Positions 189 to 63,184 of a stretch of DNA of 64,000 bases are shown here, one piece after another. Position 1 is the stretch's first letter, and each line of letters begins with the position of its first letter. Below the pieces are notes generated by a model. The model worked only from the letters and a program-made list of their open reading frames with translations, was not told where the DNA came from and searched no databases. Location: NCBI RefSeq assembly GCF_002251855.1, contig NZ_NOXW01000020.1:682001-746000 (forward strand). Direction: 5' to 3'. The DNA comes from Rhodoferax sp. TH121 (lineage in GTDB: Bacteria > Pseudomonadota > Gammaproteobacteria > Burkholderiales > Burkholderiaceae_C). The position numbers and the translations under genes are program-made.

Positions 189-211
189 ATATGCGCTTGC
201 AGAGATGAATA

Positions 212-266
212 TGCTATTGATTTGGTAGCTGCTTGCGCACATTCCATGAGGGCTAGAGGCCGATTT
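212..266 (+). repeat. Dispersed intergenic element, copy 1
   Basis: A 55-base element begins TGCTATTGA, has AGCTGCTTGCGCA in the middle and ends GGGCTAGAGGCC. It fills most of the gap between the stop codons of the convergent flanking genes. Six other recognisable copies occur in the window; this one is close to the apparent consensus. Confidence 0.8.
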
Positions 267-271
267 AATAC

Positions 272-2875
272 CTAAACCCCTTCCACCCGGCTCCCCGTCC
301 GCCCCCAGCGCCGTGCGGCTTCTTCCGGCCTTTGGCCTTGCTCCATGAGCGCGCCTAGCGGCGCCAACAGGGCCTTCAAATCTGCTTCGTCAAACTTGGC
401 GGCACCCTCGGTGTCATGGCCGAGCACGCTGTCGGACAGGGCGAGTTTGCGGGCCTGCAGTTCCAGCATGCGTTCTTCGATGCTGCCTTCGACCACCAGC
501 TTGTAGACGAACACTGGCTGGTCCTGGCCGATGCGGTGGGCGCGGGCGGTGGCCTGGTCTTCCACCGCCGGGTTCCACCACGGGTCCATGTGGATGACGG
601 TATCGGCGGCGGTGAGGTTCAGGCCCACGCCACCGGCTTTGAGGCTGACCAGCAGCACCGGCACCTCTAGGTTTTGAAAACGCTGCACGACCTTGCCGCG
701 TTGGCCCGGTGAGGTGTTGCCGGTCAGGCTCAAAAACGGCAGACGCAGGGCGGAGAAGGTATCCGCAATCAGCTCCAGCAGCTCGGTAAACTGCGAGAAC
801 ACCAGCACGCGGCGGCCTTCATCGACCAGCGGGACCAATAGGTCCGTGAGCGCATGCAGTTTGGCGCGTTCCATGTCGGGCGCGATGTCGCTGCCTTTCA
901 CCAAATAGGGATCGCAACACACCTGCCGCAGCTTGAGCAGGGCATCGAGGATGCTGATCTGTGCCCCGGCAAAGTTCTGGCGTTGCAGCACGCGGCGCAC
1001 TTGTTTGTCGGCGGCAACGCGCACGCTCTCGTACAGCTCGCGCTGGCGGCCCTGCAGTTGCACGCGCTGGATGACTTCGGTGCGCGGTGGCAGCTCGGTG
1101 GCCACGTCTTGCTTGCGGCGGCGCAGGATGAAGGGGCGCACGCGCTGGGCGAGCAGGGCGGCGCGCACCGTTTCGCCGTTTTCTTCAATCGGCTTGCGCC
1201 AGCGGGCGGCAAAGCTGCGCTGATCGCCCAGAAAGCCGGGCATCAGCCAGTCGAACTGGGCCCAGAGTTCGCCCAGGTGGTTTTCCAGCGGCGTGCCGGT
1301 CAGGCACAGGCGGTGGCGGCTATGCAACTGGCGCAGGGCGCGGGCGCTGCGGCTGGCCGCGTTTTTGACCATTTGCGCCTCATCCAGAATGACCAGATGA
1401 AAAGGCTGCGCGGCCAGCGCCTCGATGTCGCGCCACAACAGCGGGTAGGTGGTGAGCACCAGGTCGTGCGCGGGCATGGCTGCAAACAGCGCGGCGCGGT
1501 CCGGGCCGTGCAAGTTCAGCACCCGCAAATCCGGCGCCATGCGGCGGGCCTCGGCCTGCCAGTTGAACAGCAGCGAGGTGGGCAGCACGACCAGCACCGG
1601 GCGGTCCAGCCTGCCAGCCTGTTTCTCCAGCAGCACATGGGCCAGCGCTTGGGCGGTTTTGCCCAAGCCCATGTCGTCGGCCAAGATGCCGCCCAAGTGT
1701 TGTGCGCGCAGGTATTGCAGCCAAGCCAGGCCTTCGAGTTGGTAGGGGCGCAGTTGTACCTGCAAACCGGTAGGCGCAGCTACCGGCTGGGGCTGGCCTA
1801 TGGTGTGCAGGCGTTGGGCCAGCGCGGCCAGGCCCACATCGCCTTCCAACTGCCAGCCTTGGTGTGCGCCTACGCGCGAGGCGTCCAGCAAGCTGGCGCG
1901 CAGGGTGTTGATGCGGCGGGCTTCCCATGCGCCAAGCTGGATGGGGCCCTTGGTCGCCATGCGTTGCGGGTCGGTGAGCAAGTCCACCATGGCGCCCACG
2001 ATGGCTTTGAGCGGGCCCGCTTCGGCGTCGATGCGCTTGCCACCTGGTGCGCGCAGCGACACGGTGGCCAGGTCGTCCAGCGTGTCGAGGTAGTTGCGGA
2101 CCAGCCAGCGCGGGTCGCGCTTGATGAGGTTGGCCAGCATGGGGGCGAGGTCCAGCGTCTCGCCGTCAATCTCAATGCCCAAGCTCAGCAGCCATTCACC
2201 CTCGCGCCCGAGCAGGGCCAGCTTTTCGACGCCGCGTGCGGGTTTGGCCAAGGGGCTGTCCAGCTCTTTGCCCAGCACCTCGCCGGTGTCGGGGCTGAGG
2301 ATGAGCTTCCAGCGCTCCACGGGCACGCTCTCGTGCGCAAAACCGGGTTGCACCACCACCGTCCAGCCTTTGGCCTGCAGCTGAGGCACCTGGTCGCCCC
2401 AGAAGTCGCCAAAGTGGTCTTCCTGCGGCAGTGTCCACACGCTGCCCAGATGCGGGCGCTGCTTCTGGCTGCGCCACTGGAGGGTGGCGTCGGCCAGCGG
2501 CATAAAGCCCATGTCCCACACCGCGTCCATGGCGTCGGCCTCGGCCACCAGGTTGCGCTGCAGGCGTACCAGCGGGCCGCCGGTGTCGAACAGGTCTTCA
2601 AACTCCGCCGGGCGGCTGTTGAGGATGGAGCTGGGGGCGGGCGTCTCCCAGCGGTCGCCGGCCGGGGTGCGGTACGTCCAGTCGAACTGCGCCAGCGTCA
2701 CGCTGTCGCCGCGTGGGCCCAACTTGCCTTGGGGCTTGAGCCCCAGCAGGCCTTCGCCCCGGCCCAGCGTCATCAGCGTGATGCGGGGGCGGAACTCGCC
2801 GATGACGGGGCCATCCGCGTCGGGCTCCGGGGGGCTGGGGTTGGCAGGCAAATGCGGTGTGCGCTTGCGGTTCAT
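272..2875 (-). CDS. SNF2-family DEAD/DEAH-box helicase
   Basis: A large ATP-dependent DNA translocase of the SNF2/RapA-like superfamily 2. Helicase motif I (DDMGLGKT) is at about residues 399-407 and the motif II DEAQ box at 498-501. The C-terminal helicase lobe contains LKAGGVGLNLTAADTVIH and the DQATARAHRIGQ motif typical of SNF2 proteins. The first 370 residues are a family-specific N-terminal region with no motif I recognise. An in-frame TTG lies two codons upstream at 2881, but the ATG at 2875 is the better start. A repeat copy lies directly upstream. The product probably acts on chromosomal DNA during transcription or repair, but the exact substrate cannot be told from sequence. Length (867 residues) fits the family. 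Confidence 0.9.
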   Translation of the reverse strand: MNRKRTPHLPANPSPPEPDADGPVIGEFRPRITLMTLGRGEGLLGLKPQGKLGPRGDSVTLAQFDWTYRTPAGDRWETPAPSSILNSRPAEFEDLFDTGGPLVRLQRNLVAEADAMDAVWDMGFMPLADATLQWRSQKQRPHLGSVWTLPQEDHFGDFWGDQVPQLQAKGWTVVVQPGFAHESVPVERWKLILSPDTGEVLGKELDSPLAKPARGVEKLALLGREGEWLLSLGIEIDGETLDLAPMLANLIKRDPRWLVRNYLDTLDDLATVSLRAPGGKRIDAEAGPLKAIVGAMVDLLTDPQRMATKGPIQLGAWEARRINTLRASLLDASRVGAHQGWQLEGDVGLAALAQRLHTIGQPQPVAAPTGLQVQLRPYQLEGLAWLQYLRAQHLGGILADDMGLGKTAQALAHVLLEKQAGRLDRPVLVVLPTSLLFNWQAEARRMAPDLRVLNLHGPDRAALFAAMPAHDLVLTTYPLLWRDIEALAAQPFHLVILDEAQMVKNAASRSARALRQLHSRHRLCLTGTPLENHLGELWAQFDWLMPGFLGDQRSFAARWRKPIEENGETVRAALLAQRVRPFILRRRKQDVATELPPRTEVIQRVQLQGRQRELYESVRVAADKQVRRVLQRQNFAGAQISILDALLKLRQVCCDPYLVKGSDIAPDMERAKLHALTDLLVPLVDEGRRVLVFSQFTELLELIADTFSALRLPFLSLTGNTSPGQRGKVVQRFQNLEVPVLLVSLKAGGVGLNLTAADTVIHMDPWWNPAVEDQATARAHRIGQDQPVFVYKLVVEGSIEERMLELQARKLALSDSVLGHDTEGAAKFDEADLKALLAPLGALMEQGQRPEEAARRWGRTGSRVEGV

Positions 2876-2879
2876 GGTC

Positions 2880-2934
2880 AAAATGGCTGCTAGCGCTCGT
2901 GGAGTGTGCGCAAGCAGCTATCAAAAGAAGAGCA
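2880..2934 (-). repeat. Dispersed intergenic element, copy 2
   Basis: Read on the minus strand it starts TGCTCTTC, has AGCTGCTTGCGCA and ends in CGCTAGCAGCC. It fills the space between the end of the glyoxalase-fold gene and the start of the helicase gene, so a transcript of both would carry it in the sense orientation. Confidence 0.75.
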
Positions 2935-2956
2935 AATCTCCGTCAACACCCGCAGG

Positions 2957-12272: not shown

Positions 12273-12348
12273 CCGCCCTGCAATGAAGGCCCTTCCCATG
12301 CCACAGTCGCATCCGCCAATCGGTTCAGCCGTGTCGCGGAAGGTTAAT

Positions 12349-12387
12349 TAACCAGCTTTAACCAGCTAATGTTCCCTGAAGGGGAAC
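12349..12387 (+). promoter_or_regulatory. sucA leader: tandem motif and hairpin before the Shine-Dalgarno
   Basis: TAACCAGCT occurs twice with a 10-base period (12349-12357, 12359-12367). Immediately after, GTTCCC-TGAAG-GGGAAC (12371-12387) forms a 6-bp stem ending one base before the strong ribosome site GGAGGT (12388-12393) of sucA (ATG 12403). The position suggests protein or RNA-structure control of sucA translation. Confidence 0.4.
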
Positions 12388-12402
12388 GGAGGTCAGCGAA
12401 AT

Positions 12403-18088: not shown

Positions 18089-18099
18089 TCAAAATTAGT

Positions 18100-18157
18100 G
18101 CCAAATAAGCTGCTAGGTCGCATGAATAGTGCGCTAGCAGCTTCTCTTTTTGTAGCA
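18100..18157 (-). repeat. Dispersed intergenic element, copy 3 (diverged)
   Basis: Read on the minus strand it starts TGCTACAAAAAG, has AAGCTGCTAGCGCA and ends in ACCTAGCAGC. It fills the lpd-zapE gap and lies antisense to the presumed transcript. Both the inner (CTTGC to CTAGC) and outer boxes have changed, in a way that makes the two ends pair (GCTGCTAG with CTAGCAGC). Confidence 0.65.
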
Positions 18158-18171
18158 TACCGGAGCTTGTT

Positions 18172-42659: not shown

Positions 42660-42675
42660 TGCTCCTTTTTTAAGT

Positions 42676-42731
42676 CAAATAGCCCTCTAGCCCCCGTAAA
42701 TACTGCGCAAGCAGCTATAAATTTAGGAGTA
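42676..42731 (-). repeat. Dispersed intergenic element, copy 4
   Basis: Minus-strand reading: TACTCCTAAA, then AGCTGCTTGCGCA, then GGGGGCTAGAGGG. It fills the gap between purA and the phosphoribosyltransferase gene. Its terminal TACTCCTA read on the plus strand is TAGGAGTA, the Shine-Dalgarno of the next gene. Confidence 0.8.
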
Positions 42732-47453: not shown

Positions 47454-48141
47454 GTCTGATTCCATCATTTCGGTTGACCATGTTTTCAAGGCGGTGACTG
47501 ATTCCACCGGCACGCTGGAGATCCTGCGCGACATTGATTTTGCACTCAAAGCCCGCGAGACCGCGGCCATCGTCGGAGCATCCGGGTCTGGCAAGAGCAC
47601 ATTGCTCTCTATCATCGCCGGGCTAGACACCCCCACCAGTGGCACCGTGCGCCTAGCCGGGCACGACATATTTGCCATCGACGAAGACGCCCGCGCCGCG
47701 CTTCGCGCCAAGCAGGTGGGTTTTGTGTTTCAGAGTTTTCAGCTGCTGGGCAACCTCACGGCGCTAGAAAATGTGATGCTGCCGCTGGAACTGGATGGCC
47801 GCAAAGACGCCCGCAGCGCCGCCACCGAGATGTTGGCCCGCGTGGGCTTGTCGCAGCGCCTCAATTCGTACCCCAAGGTGCTGAGCGGTGGCGAGCAGCA
47901 GCGCGTGGCGCTGGCGCGTGCCTTTGTGGTGAAGCCTGCCGTGCTGCTGGCCGACGAACCCACCGGCAGCCTGGACTTCGCCACCGGCGAAAAAATCATG
48001 GAGCTGATGTTTGACCTGAACCGCGAACAGGGAACGACCCTGGTGCTGGTCACCCACGACCGCGGCATTGCCGCCCGCTGCGACCGCCGCATCACCATCG
48101 AGGCGGGCAGGGTGGTCGCAGAGCCGGTGGCTGAGGTTTAA
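47452..48141 (+). CDS. ybbA: ABC transporter ATP-binding protein, YbbA/LolD type
   Basis: 229 residues. Walker A GASGSGKST at 42-50, Q-loop in FVFQSFQLLGNLT, signature LSGGEQQRVALARA from about residue 144, Walker B LLADEPTGSLD, and H-loop VTHD. It belongs to the MacB/LolD-like class that normally works with a large FtsX-type permease (YbbP in E. coli). No permease gene follows here; the next gene is a 2OG oxygenase. Its start codon overlaps that of tesA by two bases on the opposite strand. Confidence 0.93.
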   Translation: MSDSIISVDHVFKAVTDSTGTLEILRDIDFALKARETAAIVGASGSGKSTLLSIIAGLDTPTSGTVRLAGHDIFAIDEDARAALRAKQVGFVFQSFQLLGNLTALENVMLPLELDGRKDARSAATEMLARVGLSQRLNSYPKVLSGGEQQRVALARAFVVKPAVLLADEPTGSLDFATGEKIMELMFDLNREQGTTLVLVTHDRGIAARCDRRITIEAGRVVAEPVAEV

Positions 48142-48199
48142 GCCATTTTGGCCTCTAGAGCCCGTGGATATTGCGCGAACAGCTCCTGAAAACGTAGCA
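48142..48199 (-). repeat. Dispersed intergenic element, copy 5
   Basis: Minus-strand reading: TGCTACG, then AGGAGCTGTTCGCGCAATA, then GGGCTCTAGAGGCC and AAAATGGC. It begins at the base after the ybbA stop codon. It is the copy most like the coding copy 6 (both have AGGAGCT, TTCGCGCAATAT). Confidence 0.8.
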
Positions 48200-48213
48200 A
48201 ACATGGTGCCTTT

Positions 48214-48601: not shown

Positions 48602-49381
48602 ATGTCATCCCCCAAAGTGCTATTCGGCTTTCACGCCGTGGGCGTGCGCCTGAAGACCGCCCCCAAATCCATCATTGAAATCTTTTACGAGCCCACGCGC
48701 CGCGACGCGCGCATGCGCCAGTTTCTGGAAAAGGTCGCAGAAGCGGGCATTCGCGTGGTCGAAGCCGACGGCATGCGCCTGGCCAAGATTGCTGGTAGCC
48801 ACGGCCACCAGGGCGTGGCCGCCCGCGTGCAAGAGATCAAACAAGTCCATTCGCTGGACGAGCTGCTGGAAAACCTGGAAGCCGCCAACGCGGACCTGCC
48901 AGTGGCTGAACGCACCAACCCGCTGATCCTGGTGCTGGACGGCGTGACCGACCCGCACAACCTGGGTGCCTGCCTGCGTGTGGCCGATGGTGCGGGCGCC
49001 CATTGCGTCATCGCGCCCAAAGACCACGCAGCCGGCATCAACGCCACCGTGGCCAAGGTGGCCAGCGGCGCGGCCGAGACCGTGCCGTACTTCATGGTGA
49101 CCAACCTGGCGCGCACGCTCAATGAGCTGAAAGAACGCAACATCTGGATCATCGGCACCAGCGATCAGGCCACTGGCACGCTGTACCAGGCCGACCTCAA
49201 AGGCCCCGTGGCCCTGGTACTGGGTGCCGAGGGCGATGGCATGCGCCAGCTCACCGCCAAGACCTGCGACCAGCTCGTCAGCATTCCCATGCAAGGCGCG
49301 GTGGAAAGCCTGAACGTCTCGGTAGCCAGCGGCGTCTGCCTGTACGAGGCGCTGCGCCAGCGCACCGCAGTCGCTAAATAA
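48602..49381 (+). CDS. rlmB: 23S rRNA (guanosine-2'-O) methyltransferase RlmB
   Basis: SPOUT-class methyltransferase for Gm2251 in the peptidyl-transferase loop. 259 residues. N-terminal substrate-binding domain (LFGFHAVGVRLKTAP) and the knotted domain with LVLDGVTDPHNLGACLR, LVLGAEGDGMRQL and SLNVSVASGVCLYEAL. Start ATG 48602. Confidence 0.95.
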   Translation: MSSPKVLFGFHAVGVRLKTAPKSIIEIFYEPTRRDARMRQFLEKVAEAGIRVVEADGMRLAKIAGSHGHQGVAARVQEIKQVHSLDELLENLEAANADLPVAERTNPLILVLDGVTDPHNLGACLRVADGAGAHCVIAPKDHAAGINATVAKVASGAAETVPYFMVTNLARTLNELKERNIWIIGTSDQATGTLYQADLKGPVALVLGAEGDGMRQLTAKTCDQLVSIPMQGAVESLNVSVASGVCLYEALRQRTAVAK

Positions 49382-49401
49382 GGAATCGCCCAGGAAGTGC
49401 C

Positions 49402-49761
49402 ATGATTGCTATGAAATCAGGAGCTTTTCGCGCAATATTGGTGGGCCTCATGGCCACTTTTTTATTAATGGGCTGCACCCAGGAGCAGCAAAACAAGATC
49501 AGCCGCGACATCCAGAACTGGACCGGCACTGACGGCGTGCTGGAGTTTTATGCGGGCGACAAGCTGGTGCGCCGCTTCCTCAAGATCGACAAACTCAGCA
49601 CCGCCATGGGTACCGACGACGGCAAACCGCGCAACTACCGCTTTGGCTACGGCGTGCTGGACGAAAACCTGAACATGCAGGCCGACCCCGGCGAGAAGAA
49701 GGTCTACTTCGAGATCAGCGATTTCGGCTCGAACTACATCTTCTTCGAGAACCCGCGCTAA
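49402..49761 (+). CDS. Small lipoprotein whose signal peptide is encoded by a repeat copy
   Basis: 119 residues. A lipoprotein signal with lipobox LLMGC (Cys25), followed by a charged periplasmic domain of about 95 residues (FYAGDKLVRRFLKIDKLST, then YRFGYGVLDENLNMQADPGEKKVYFEISDF). The mature part looks like a real protein but belongs to no family I recognise. Residues 2-19 of the signal lie in copy 6 of the dispersed element. ATG 49402 has AGGAAG upstream; ATG 49411 is an alternative. It is followed after 11 bases by a membrane protein gene. Confidence 0.75.
   Translation: MIAMKSGAFRAILVGLMATFLLMGCTQEQQNKISRDIQNWTGTDGVLEFYAGDKLVRRFLKIDKLSTAMGTDDGKPRNYRFGYGVLDENLNMQADPGEKKVYFEISDFGSNYIFFENPR
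49407..49460 (+). repeat. Dispersed element, copy 6, inside a coding region
   Basis: TGCTATGAAATCAGGAGCT, then TTTCGCGCAATAT, then GGGCCTCATGGCC aligns along its whole length with copy 5 (shared AGGAGCT, TTCGCGCAATAT and the final GGCC). It supplies codons of the lipoprotein signal peptide. Confidence 0.7.
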
Positions 49762-61919: not shown

Positions 61920-61977
61920 TGCTATTGAATTAGGAGCTGCTTGCGCAATAGATACGGGTTCTAGAGGCCTAAAAGGC
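61920..61977 (+). repeat. Dispersed intergenic element, copy 7
   Basis: TGCTATTGAATTAGGAGCTGC, CTTGCGCAATA, GGGTTCTAGAGGCC, ending in AAAAGG. It fills the gap between the thiolase stop and the FadB-like start and is antisense to their transcript. AGAGGCCT and AGGCTCT at its end pair around AAA, next to the thiolase stop. Confidence 0.82.
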
Positions 61978-61978
61978 T

Positions 61979-63184
61979 CTAAATCCGCTCGACGATGGTG
62001 GCAATGCCCATGCCGCCGCCCACGCACAGCGTGGCCAAGCCGTAGCGCAGCTTGCGGCGGTGCAACTCGTCAATTAGCGTGCCCAGAATCATGGCGCCGG
62101 TAGCCCCCAGCGGGTGGCCCATCGCAATGGCGCCGCCGTTCACGTTCACCTTGTCGTGCGGCACCTTCATCTCTTTCATGAAACGCATCACCACGGCGGC
62201 AAAGGCTTCATTCACCTCAAACAGGTCGATGTCGTCCACCGTGAGCCCCGCCTTGGCCAGTGCTTTGCGGGTGGCAGGCATGGGGCCGGTGAGCATGATG
62301 GTCGGGTCGGCGCCGCTGAGGGCCGTAGCAACGATGCGCGCGCGCGGTGTCAGGTTGTGCGCCTTGGCGGCCGCCTCGTTGCCTACCAGCACGGCGGCTG
62401 CGCCGTCCACAATGCCTGACGAATTGCCCGCGTGGTGCACATGGTGGATGCGTTCCACCTGCGGGTAGCGGGTGAGGGCCACGGCGTCAAAACCCATGCC
62501 GCCCATGTCGGCAAACGCGGGCTTGAGCCCGGCCAGGCCTTCCAGTGTGGTGCCGGGTTTGATGAACTCGTCGCGCGCCAGGATGGTCAGGCCCAGTGTG
62601 TCTTTCACGGGGCGCACGGATGCGTCAAAGTAACCCGCCGCCTGTGCCTTGGTGGCGCGGCGTTGGGATTCGAGTGCGTAGGCGTCTACGTCGGCGCGGG
62701 TGAAGCCTTCGAGCGTGGCAATCAGGTCCGCGCCAATGCCCTGCGGCACAAAGGCGGTTTGCGAATTGGTCTCGGGGTCCATCGCCCAGGCGCCGCCGTC
62801 GGAGCCAATCGGCACGCGGCTCATGCTCTCCACACCGCCGGCCACCACCAGGTCTTCCCAGCCCGAGCGCACCTTTTGGGCGGCCATGTTCACGGCCTCC
62901 AGGCCGGAGGCACAAAACCGGTTGATCTGCACGCCCGCGGCCTGGAAGTCCCAGCCCGCCTTGAGCGCGGCCACTTTCGGTATGACCGAGCCCTGGTCGC
63001 CCACGGGGGACACCACGCCCATCACCACGTCGTCCACGCGGGCGGTGTCAAAGCCATTGCGCTCTTGCAGTTCGGTTAACAGGCCGGCCAACAGGGTGAC
63101 GGGCTTGACCTCGTGCAGGCTGCCATCTTTCTTGCCTTTGCCGCGCGGGGTGCGGATGGCGTCAAACACAAATGCTTCGCTCAT
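61979..63184 (-). CDS. Acetyl-CoA C-acyltransferase (thiolase, FadA-like)
   Basis: 401 residues. Last step of beta-oxidation. Active-site Cys in [17 protein letters not shown], His in [15 protein letters not shown], and the second Cys in [13 protein letters not shown]. It is of the type found with FadB-like partners. Start ATG 63184; divergent from the acyl-CoA dehydrogenase gene, with a strong palindrome in the shared gap. Confidence 0.95.

Follow-up and report, generated by a model that had tools for sequence, protein, structure and literature searches.

From where does an old gene for an exported protein obtain a new signal peptide? Signal peptides evolve fast and are exchangeable, and to our knowledge the source of new ones is mostly unknown. 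The question is raised by a gene for a lipoprotein of 119 amino acids at 49402-49761 (plus strand) of a 64-kb stretch of Rhodoferax sp. TH121 DNA, the whole of which we refer to as the window, in which most of the signal peptide is read from a copy of a short dispersed repeat. Comparison of DNA sequences across the family leads us to propose that the lipoprotein gene, which is old, very probably received the repeat at its 5' end, and that the translation of the repeat replaced an earlier signal peptide.

A repeat copy within the lipoprotein signal peptide

The gene was identified from its open reading frame, by family searches and by a search for orthologues; its product had no Pfam or NCBIfam family above cut-off. 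A likely ribosome binding site, AGGAAG (49392-49397, plus strand), is found in the sequence four bases 5' of the ATG at 49402. The signal peptide, MIAMKSGAFRAILVGLMATFLLMG (49402-49473), was placed by the cysteine that is conserved in 130 orthologous loci, and comparison of the orthologues also placed the lipobox LLMGC at 49462-49476, with the mature protein beginning at Cys25 (49474-49476). By eye, MIAMKSGAFRAILVGLMATFLLMG-C has a charged n-region, a hydrophobic h-region and a cysteine at +1 after the lipobox; the methionine at -2 falls outside the classical consensus and is unusual for a lipobox. The product of 49402-49761 is a predicted bacterial lipoprotein and a putative substrate of Lgt and LspA. 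An AlphaFold model built from 20 sequences had a mean predicted local distance difference test score (pLDDT) of 48.6, too poor for a fold search.

The repeat is about 65 bp long, with the consensus TTTGCTATnnATTCAGGAGCTGnTCGCGCAATATCCACGGGGTCTAGAGGCCAATTTGGCTTnAA derived from 30 own-genome copies and a G+C content of about 45% (counted on the consensus). It is open in one sense frame, which reads roughly F-A-I-K-S-G-A-A-R-A-I-S-T-G-A-R-G-Q-F-G. When a profile of the 30 copies, which left out the lipoprotein copy and included a copy at 48137-48201, was run against the window, it matched 49406-49457 on the plus strand (37.0 bits, E=1.1e-10, profile positions 2-53), and it is this segment that provides codons 2-18 of the signal peptide. 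The initial annotation had placed the element at 49407-49460, named AGGAGCT, TTCGCGCAATAT and GGCC as shared motifs and described most of the signal peptide as supplied by the repeat frame; the element, its motifs and its part in the signal peptide are borne out by the profile match and the sequence. Its description of an alignment along the whole length holds for the first 42 positions, 33 of which are identical when 49405-49469 is set against the own-genome consensus, and is too generous for the 3' third, which is weak (43/65 identities overall). With a multi-genome profile, the match to the lipoprotein copy was restricted to profile positions 2-42.

The gene is old and only some orthologues carry the repeat

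Orthologues of the lipoprotein were found in 54 of 299 sampled genomes of the family, own genome included. Together with the best 80 of 226 loci in named genomes, 50 of these 54 (G058, G185, G081 and G278 were left out) gave 130 loci for examination, twelve of which are duplicates, leaving 118 distinct. The cysteine is present in 130/130 loci, the mature protein is 70-98% identical in the other 129, and the gene extends to other genera, with records from Noviherbaspirillum and Herbaspirillum as well. Birth of the gene through the repeat, one of two origins put forward in the initial annotation, is therefore wrong: the gene is present in 54/299 family genomes and its mature part, from the cysteine on, is conserved across genera.

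The signal peptide behaves differently. With the multi-genome repeat profile its DNA scored above 6 bits at 63 of the 130 loci (57 of the 118 distinct), divided between 15 of the 50 sampled genomes and 48 of the 80 named loci, the latter figure overstating the general rate because these loci were kept for their closeness to the window protein. Both strands were scored, and all 63 loci matched on the coding strand; two also matched on the other strand, at 6.1 bits each, and these score 26-27 bits on the coding strand. One strand and one frame are used throughout, in register 31 (40 loci), 52 (10), 19 (6), 34 (5), 25 (1) or 22 (1). L107 and L113 match over almost the entire repeat, at 48 bits. 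Among the 67 unmatched loci seven score between -2.5 and 4.5 bits, and two of these seven, L153 and L154, resemble decayed versions.

The presence of the repeat in the gene followed its abundance in the genome. We classed the 50 sampled genomes as repeat-rich (50 or more matches) or repeat-poor (5 or fewer), taking 27 counts, own genome included, from a first profile and the other 23 from a second at E<=0.01. It can be seen that the gene carries the repeat in 15/17 repeat-rich and 0/33 repeat-poor genomes (Fisher p=6e-11, not corrected for kinship and optimistic because the genomes are related). The orthologues of all 33 repeat-poor genomes thus have signal peptides unlike the repeat, so that the condition under which the initial annotation would have been refuted did not arise; this supports exchange of the N-terminus, the other origin that had been put forward.

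Exchange could in principle have run the other way, with the dispersed copies descending from the signal peptide of the lipoprotein gene, for which there is nothing beyond the likeness itself. The Gly, Gln and Arg codons of most intergenic copies, and their 3' tail, are lost or changed in the signal peptides; G125 has at least 150 matches with no lipoprotein gene detected, and G113 and G064, with about 150 matches each, have the gene without the repeat. We consider such a reverse origin extremely unlikely.

The likeness is one of DNA

The open frame of the repeat is intrinsically similar to a signal peptide, and a signal peptide with many Ala, Ile and Lys residues might, whatever its origin, come to resemble its translation by convergence, at the level of protein only. 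For the window signal peptide, which scores 30.3 bits, the maxima were 5.8 bits in 200 codon shuffles and 5.1 bits in 200 synonymous recodings, so that none of either set reached the observed score; under a strict recoding that used the codon usage of repeat-derived signal peptides the maximum was 18.2 bits, again with 0/200 reaching 30.3. Across the 63 matched loci, 200 synonymous recodings per locus never reached the observed score and codon shuffles did so at a single locus (L124, 1/200). Strict recoding was applied to the 57 loci above 12 bits, 47 of which gave 0/200; L119, L155 and L121, equalled by 3, 4 and 6 of 200 strict recodings, are what convergence might account for.

Silent positions gave the same picture. 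At four-fold sites the register-31 signal peptides are identical at 0.70, against 0.37 expected by shuffling, and in 62 pairs for which silent identity in the mature gene is 0.37 the signal peptides are still at 0.72; the repeat-derived stretch has therefore not decayed in the manner of a neutral relic. In the 58 signal peptides that lack the repeat, silent sites are little more conserved than expected (0.386 versus 0.353). Alanine codons in the repeat-derived signal peptides are specific to position, with GCT in 32/32 at -51 and GCA in 25/32 at -42. Since recoding destroys the match and silent bases are conserved, we conclude that the likeness is in DNA and not only in protein, and we regard convergence as very unlikely.

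Changes after capture

We compared 32 non-redundant register-31 signal peptides codon by codon with 249 intergenic copies. Lysine stands at codon 4 in 27/32 signal peptides and 70/249 intergenic copies, arginine at codon 16 in 0/32 and 124/249, respectively; Ala7 is found in 32/32 and Phe19 in 31/32 of the signal peptides. Mean hydropathy is higher in the signal peptides than in the intergenic copies at codons 11, 12 and 16 to 21, and lower at codons 4 to 6. The repeat frame is free of stops in 32/32 signal peptides and in 179/249 intergenic copies. After capture, residues moved towards those of a proper signal peptide, polar residues of the repeat being lost and hydrophobic ones kept.

A start codon lies immediately 5' of the repeat in 34 of the 40 register-31 loci and in five the apparent start is an ATG within the repeat itself, with neither in one. 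As most copies of the repeat lie between genes (261 of the 375 examined in nine genomes), it might be argued that at this gene too it is only untranslated or intergenic DNA, with the true start downstream. However, M17 is the first in-frame ATG beyond M4, and a start there would put eight residues ahead of the cysteine; with a start at TTG13 or GTG14 there would be 12 or 11, uncharged. Stretches of this length are too short for a signal peptide. Furthermore, the frame is kept in 63/63 loci, register shifts are multiples of three, and the residues change by position towards charge in the n-region and hydrophobicity in the h-region. A downstream start is, in our judgement, highly improbable.

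One capture or several

The initial annotation saw a single event; the exchange of the N-terminus is probably recurrent. The gene for RlmB, a 23S rRNA 2'-O-methyltransferase (48602-49381, plus strand; TIGR00186, 239.6 bits, cut-off 160.15), is the conserved upstream neighbour and lies directly upstream in 95/130 loci, some of the 130 being truncated. A tree was made from RlmB and the mature lipoprotein (85 rows, 351 columns, quick method, midpoint-rooted). It requires 14 changes over all register classes, or nine for repeat versus none, and one group, with a Shimodaira-Hasegawa-like approximate likelihood ratio test (SH-aLRT) support of 99, mixes register 31, register 52 and loci without the repeat.

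We also asked in 11 genomes whether the repeat subtype of a genome fits its own signal peptide better than foreign subtypes do, with the signal-peptide copies removed from the profiles. The own subtype fits (p=5e-5 over the 11 genomes) and was ranked first in 5/11; the signal is driven by G000, G035, G121, G207 and G305. Removal of the signal-peptide copies from the profiles of two genomes lowered the number of own-first ranks from 6 to 5 of 11 and moved G304 from 4th to 9th.

A number of observations weigh against replacement by the repeat, or against its having happened repeatedly. The 3' third of the lipoprotein's repeat copy is weak, ten of the 57 signal peptides are equalled by 1-6 of 200 strict recodings, and the repeat-rich genomes G113 and G064 have no repeat in their lipoprotein gene. 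Register 19 has three distinct sequences, a strong one at 34.8 bits and two weak ones at 8.2 and 8.5 bits, and register 52 scores only 6.9-24.4 bits. The tree, of 351 columns, has strong support on 20/82 inner branches. In the subtype test the preference for the own subtype falls short of significance among seven core Rhodoferax-like genomes (p=0.077; p=0.012 for eight register-31 genomes), the own subtype is ranked 4th to 9th in four of the eleven, and the profiles of G207 (10 copies, those from G113 included) and G305 (11 copies) are thin.

Given the p value for the core group and the four low ranks, a single shared capture is possible within the core genomes. A rival account has one ancient capture followed by vertical descent, the likeness in DNA being kept by selection on nucleotides (on the structure of the mRNA, for example, or on a site close to the start codon where a protein binds) and not by new captures or conversion. 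Register 31, common to 40/63 matched loci, speaks for this, as does the result among the core genomes. On the other side, other registers in other genera match local subtypes, with G035 (GAGCA..TGGGC) and G207 with G113 (ATGCCGGC) ranking their own genome first; the tree requires the 14 or nine changes given above; and a conserved fold is absent in the 30 own-genome copies. We think one ancient capture unlikely, though by no means negligible.

Because registers differ, the own subtype is the best match in 5/11 genomes and silent bases show no decay, we conclude that there were several captures between genera, with conversion or selection on nucleotides as the alternatives within the core group. 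In the course of events that we envisage, a dispersed repeat of about 65 bp, open in one sense frame, would have arrived at the 5' end of the old lipoprotein gene; the ancestral state would have been a signal peptide without the repeat, from which the translation of the repeat would have taken over; the lipoprotein would be exported through the repeat-derived peptide by Sec, Lgt and LspA; and capture or rewriting would have occurred several times rather than once. A further proposal, which we hold as tentative, is that the repeat family of a genome keeps rewriting the signal peptides: dispersed copies would donate, by gene conversion or re-insertion, to the copies resident at gene starts, so that the evolution of the signal peptides of exported proteins would be tied to that of a selfish repeat with an open frame pre-adapted to this role.

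Repeat copies in other genes

A second exported protein with a repeat-encoded signal peptide is PldA (PF02253, 1.1e-82; own genome C1, L230:3656-4675, minus strand), in which the signal peptide is read from the repeat as far as a likely signal peptidase I site (...GAMA↓QN, by eye). PldA was found in 15/61 genomes searched, and 12 loci were examined. Its signal peptide matches the repeat at 30-46 bits in 4/6 loci of the same genus, own included, and is unrelated to it in 2/6; six more distant loci are without a match. Relatives were compared for PldA alone among these other N-terminal cases. In the tentative proposal made above, the repeat frame would at times bring a start codon along with a charged n-region and a hydrophobic core, and even a probable signal peptidase I site.

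DsbD (own genome C1, L230:13206-15446, minus strand) contains two in-frame copies, one a likely signal peptide, with the probable site ...GARA↓QF by eye, and one before the thioredoxin domain. The N-termini of a dihaem cytochrome c (L236:17893-18429, plus strand) and of a protein of metallo-beta-lactamase fold (L262:15913-17067, plus strand) are antisense readings of the repeat followed by a hydrophobic stretch. Similar enoyl-CoA hydratases of two species have N-terminal copies, one sense (L240:6183-7022) and one antisense (L295:4219-5121). In-frame copies also lie inside a helicase-like protein (L244:8702-8763, and the G217 copy L293:7713-7773), an amidase-like protein (L252:18064-18003) and a ComEC-like protein (L254:14928-14990), all named by eye; by analogy, these appear to be an invasion of the kind described for Rickettsia palindromic elements.

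The remaining 114 of the 375 copies overlap called genes, and 103 of them are in the two frames of the repeat that are most often open (52 sense, 51 antisense). The gene calls come from a simple caller written for this analysis, which clips some starts. Some low-scoring internal copies in conserved genes, mutL at 20 bits and lolD at 27-35 bits, both named by eye, resemble ordinary protein sequence and may be chance, and for this reason we also give the count at >=40 bits, which is 37/42 intragenic copies in the two open frames.

Distribution of the repeat

The own-genome profile found seven significant copies in the window, the next match having E=0.11. The six besides the lipoprotein copy correspond to those already noted in the initial annotation, all being significant with the 30-copy profile. 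They lie at 211-272 (plus strand, 48.6 bits), 2877-2935 (minus, 30.8 bits), 18096-18158 (minus, 34.0 bits), 42670-42729 (minus, 42.0 bits), 48137-48201 (minus, previously drawn as 48142-48199) and 61920-61981 (plus, 53.5 bits). The copy at 48137-48201, itself one of the 30 in the profile, has the best score of the window, 70.9 bits, and lies 1.2 kb from the lipoprotein signal peptide on the opposite strand.

The own genome has at least 150 copies, every one of the 150 candidates scored having E below 1e-9; up to 150 candidates were scored in each of the other genomes too. In 28 other family genomes the first profile (E<=0.1) gave at least 50 matches in 17 and 0 to 4 in 11, and all 15 genomes picked for a matching signal peptide have at least 150 copies each. 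Density was 70-215 per Mb in the examined stretches of nine genomes, an estimate biased upward because the stretches were mostly chosen around matches. Four same-strand copies stand in series, about 1.0-1.6 kb apart, at C20:262708-266732 (L229) of the own genome.

No conserved RNA fold was found in the 30 own-genome copies (RNAalifold: two pairs, -0.72 kcal/mol). Terminal inverted repeats, the hallmark of miniature inverted-repeat transposable elements (MITEs), were not apparent as end-to-end pairing in the 30-copy consensus fold, no separate inverted-repeat search having been made. We rejected an RNA element, there being no consensus fold and, at Rfam gathering thresholds, only a sucA RNA motif in the window (12307-12398, plus strand, 81.3 bits). 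A search of a phage collection with the repeat gave no match. A plasmid search gave two records, in the better of which the match sits between two annotated genes. The Diaphorobacter plasmid copy NZ_CP049911.1:107813-107877 (L384:2501-2565) has AGCGCTT/AAGCGCT arms, a palindrome not seen in the Rhodoferax-like consensus.

Relation to known repeats

The idea of a repeat as signal sequence has been described for Yersinia, where the RU-2/YPAL repeat forms the signal sequence of YPO1552, and the signal sequences of similar proteins in other genera bear no relation to that repeat (Delihas 2007, PMC2759123, PMC2229807). Unlike the lipoprotein case, that of RU-2 concerns one locus and a 168-bp element (PMC2759123, PMC2229807); the sequence is reported to be conserved at 100% among strains of Y. 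pestis and in Y. pseudotuberculosis, and repeated capture is not described in the text available from these sources. PMC2759123 does not use the word lipoprotein. Rickettsia palindromic elements likewise have in-frame copies within many conserved protein genes; they are long stem-loops with terminal inverted repeats (PMC2229807, as far as its text was available), whereas the Comamonadaceae repeat is 65 bp long with no conserved stem in 30 own-genome copies.

Also comparable are spaced motif pairs with no known role, GCTTAT(N)5AAGCG in Acidovorax ebreus and ATAGCT(N)22CAAAAG in Polaromonas naphthalenivorans, which like our repeat are dispersed and mostly intergenic in Comamonadaceae, and for which the accessible text describes no coding use (PMC5217627). 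Our repeat is related to the A. ebreus pair, which fits exactly within the related copy on the Diaphorobacter plasmid, and the spacing of the P. naphthalenivorans pair, by our own count, does not fit the repeat consensus. The Beta-proteobacterial repeat element (BRE) is also small, is found in Betaproteobacteria and has some copies in coding sequences; in the portion of PMC3110155 available it is about 90 bp long, with an average of 69% G+C in Bordetella and at most 29 copies per genome, against about 65 bp, about 45% G+C and at least 150 copies here, as compared by description. A literature search, with thin coverage of subscription journals and without supplements, found no description of our repeat as coding sequence. 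What is new relative to the Yersinia and Rickettsia precedents is the scale, the repeated capture and possible ongoing rewriting.

In practical terms, simple gene finders may clip repeat-derived N-termini, as the caller used here did. With donor, recipient, register and subtype all available, N-terminal exchange becomes measurable. The repeat is a concrete, abundant and recurrent source of bacterial signal peptides, which an old gene has captured in dozens of genomes and which at least one further exported protein has captured as well, and scattered repeats can in this way be a recurring supply of protein parts.
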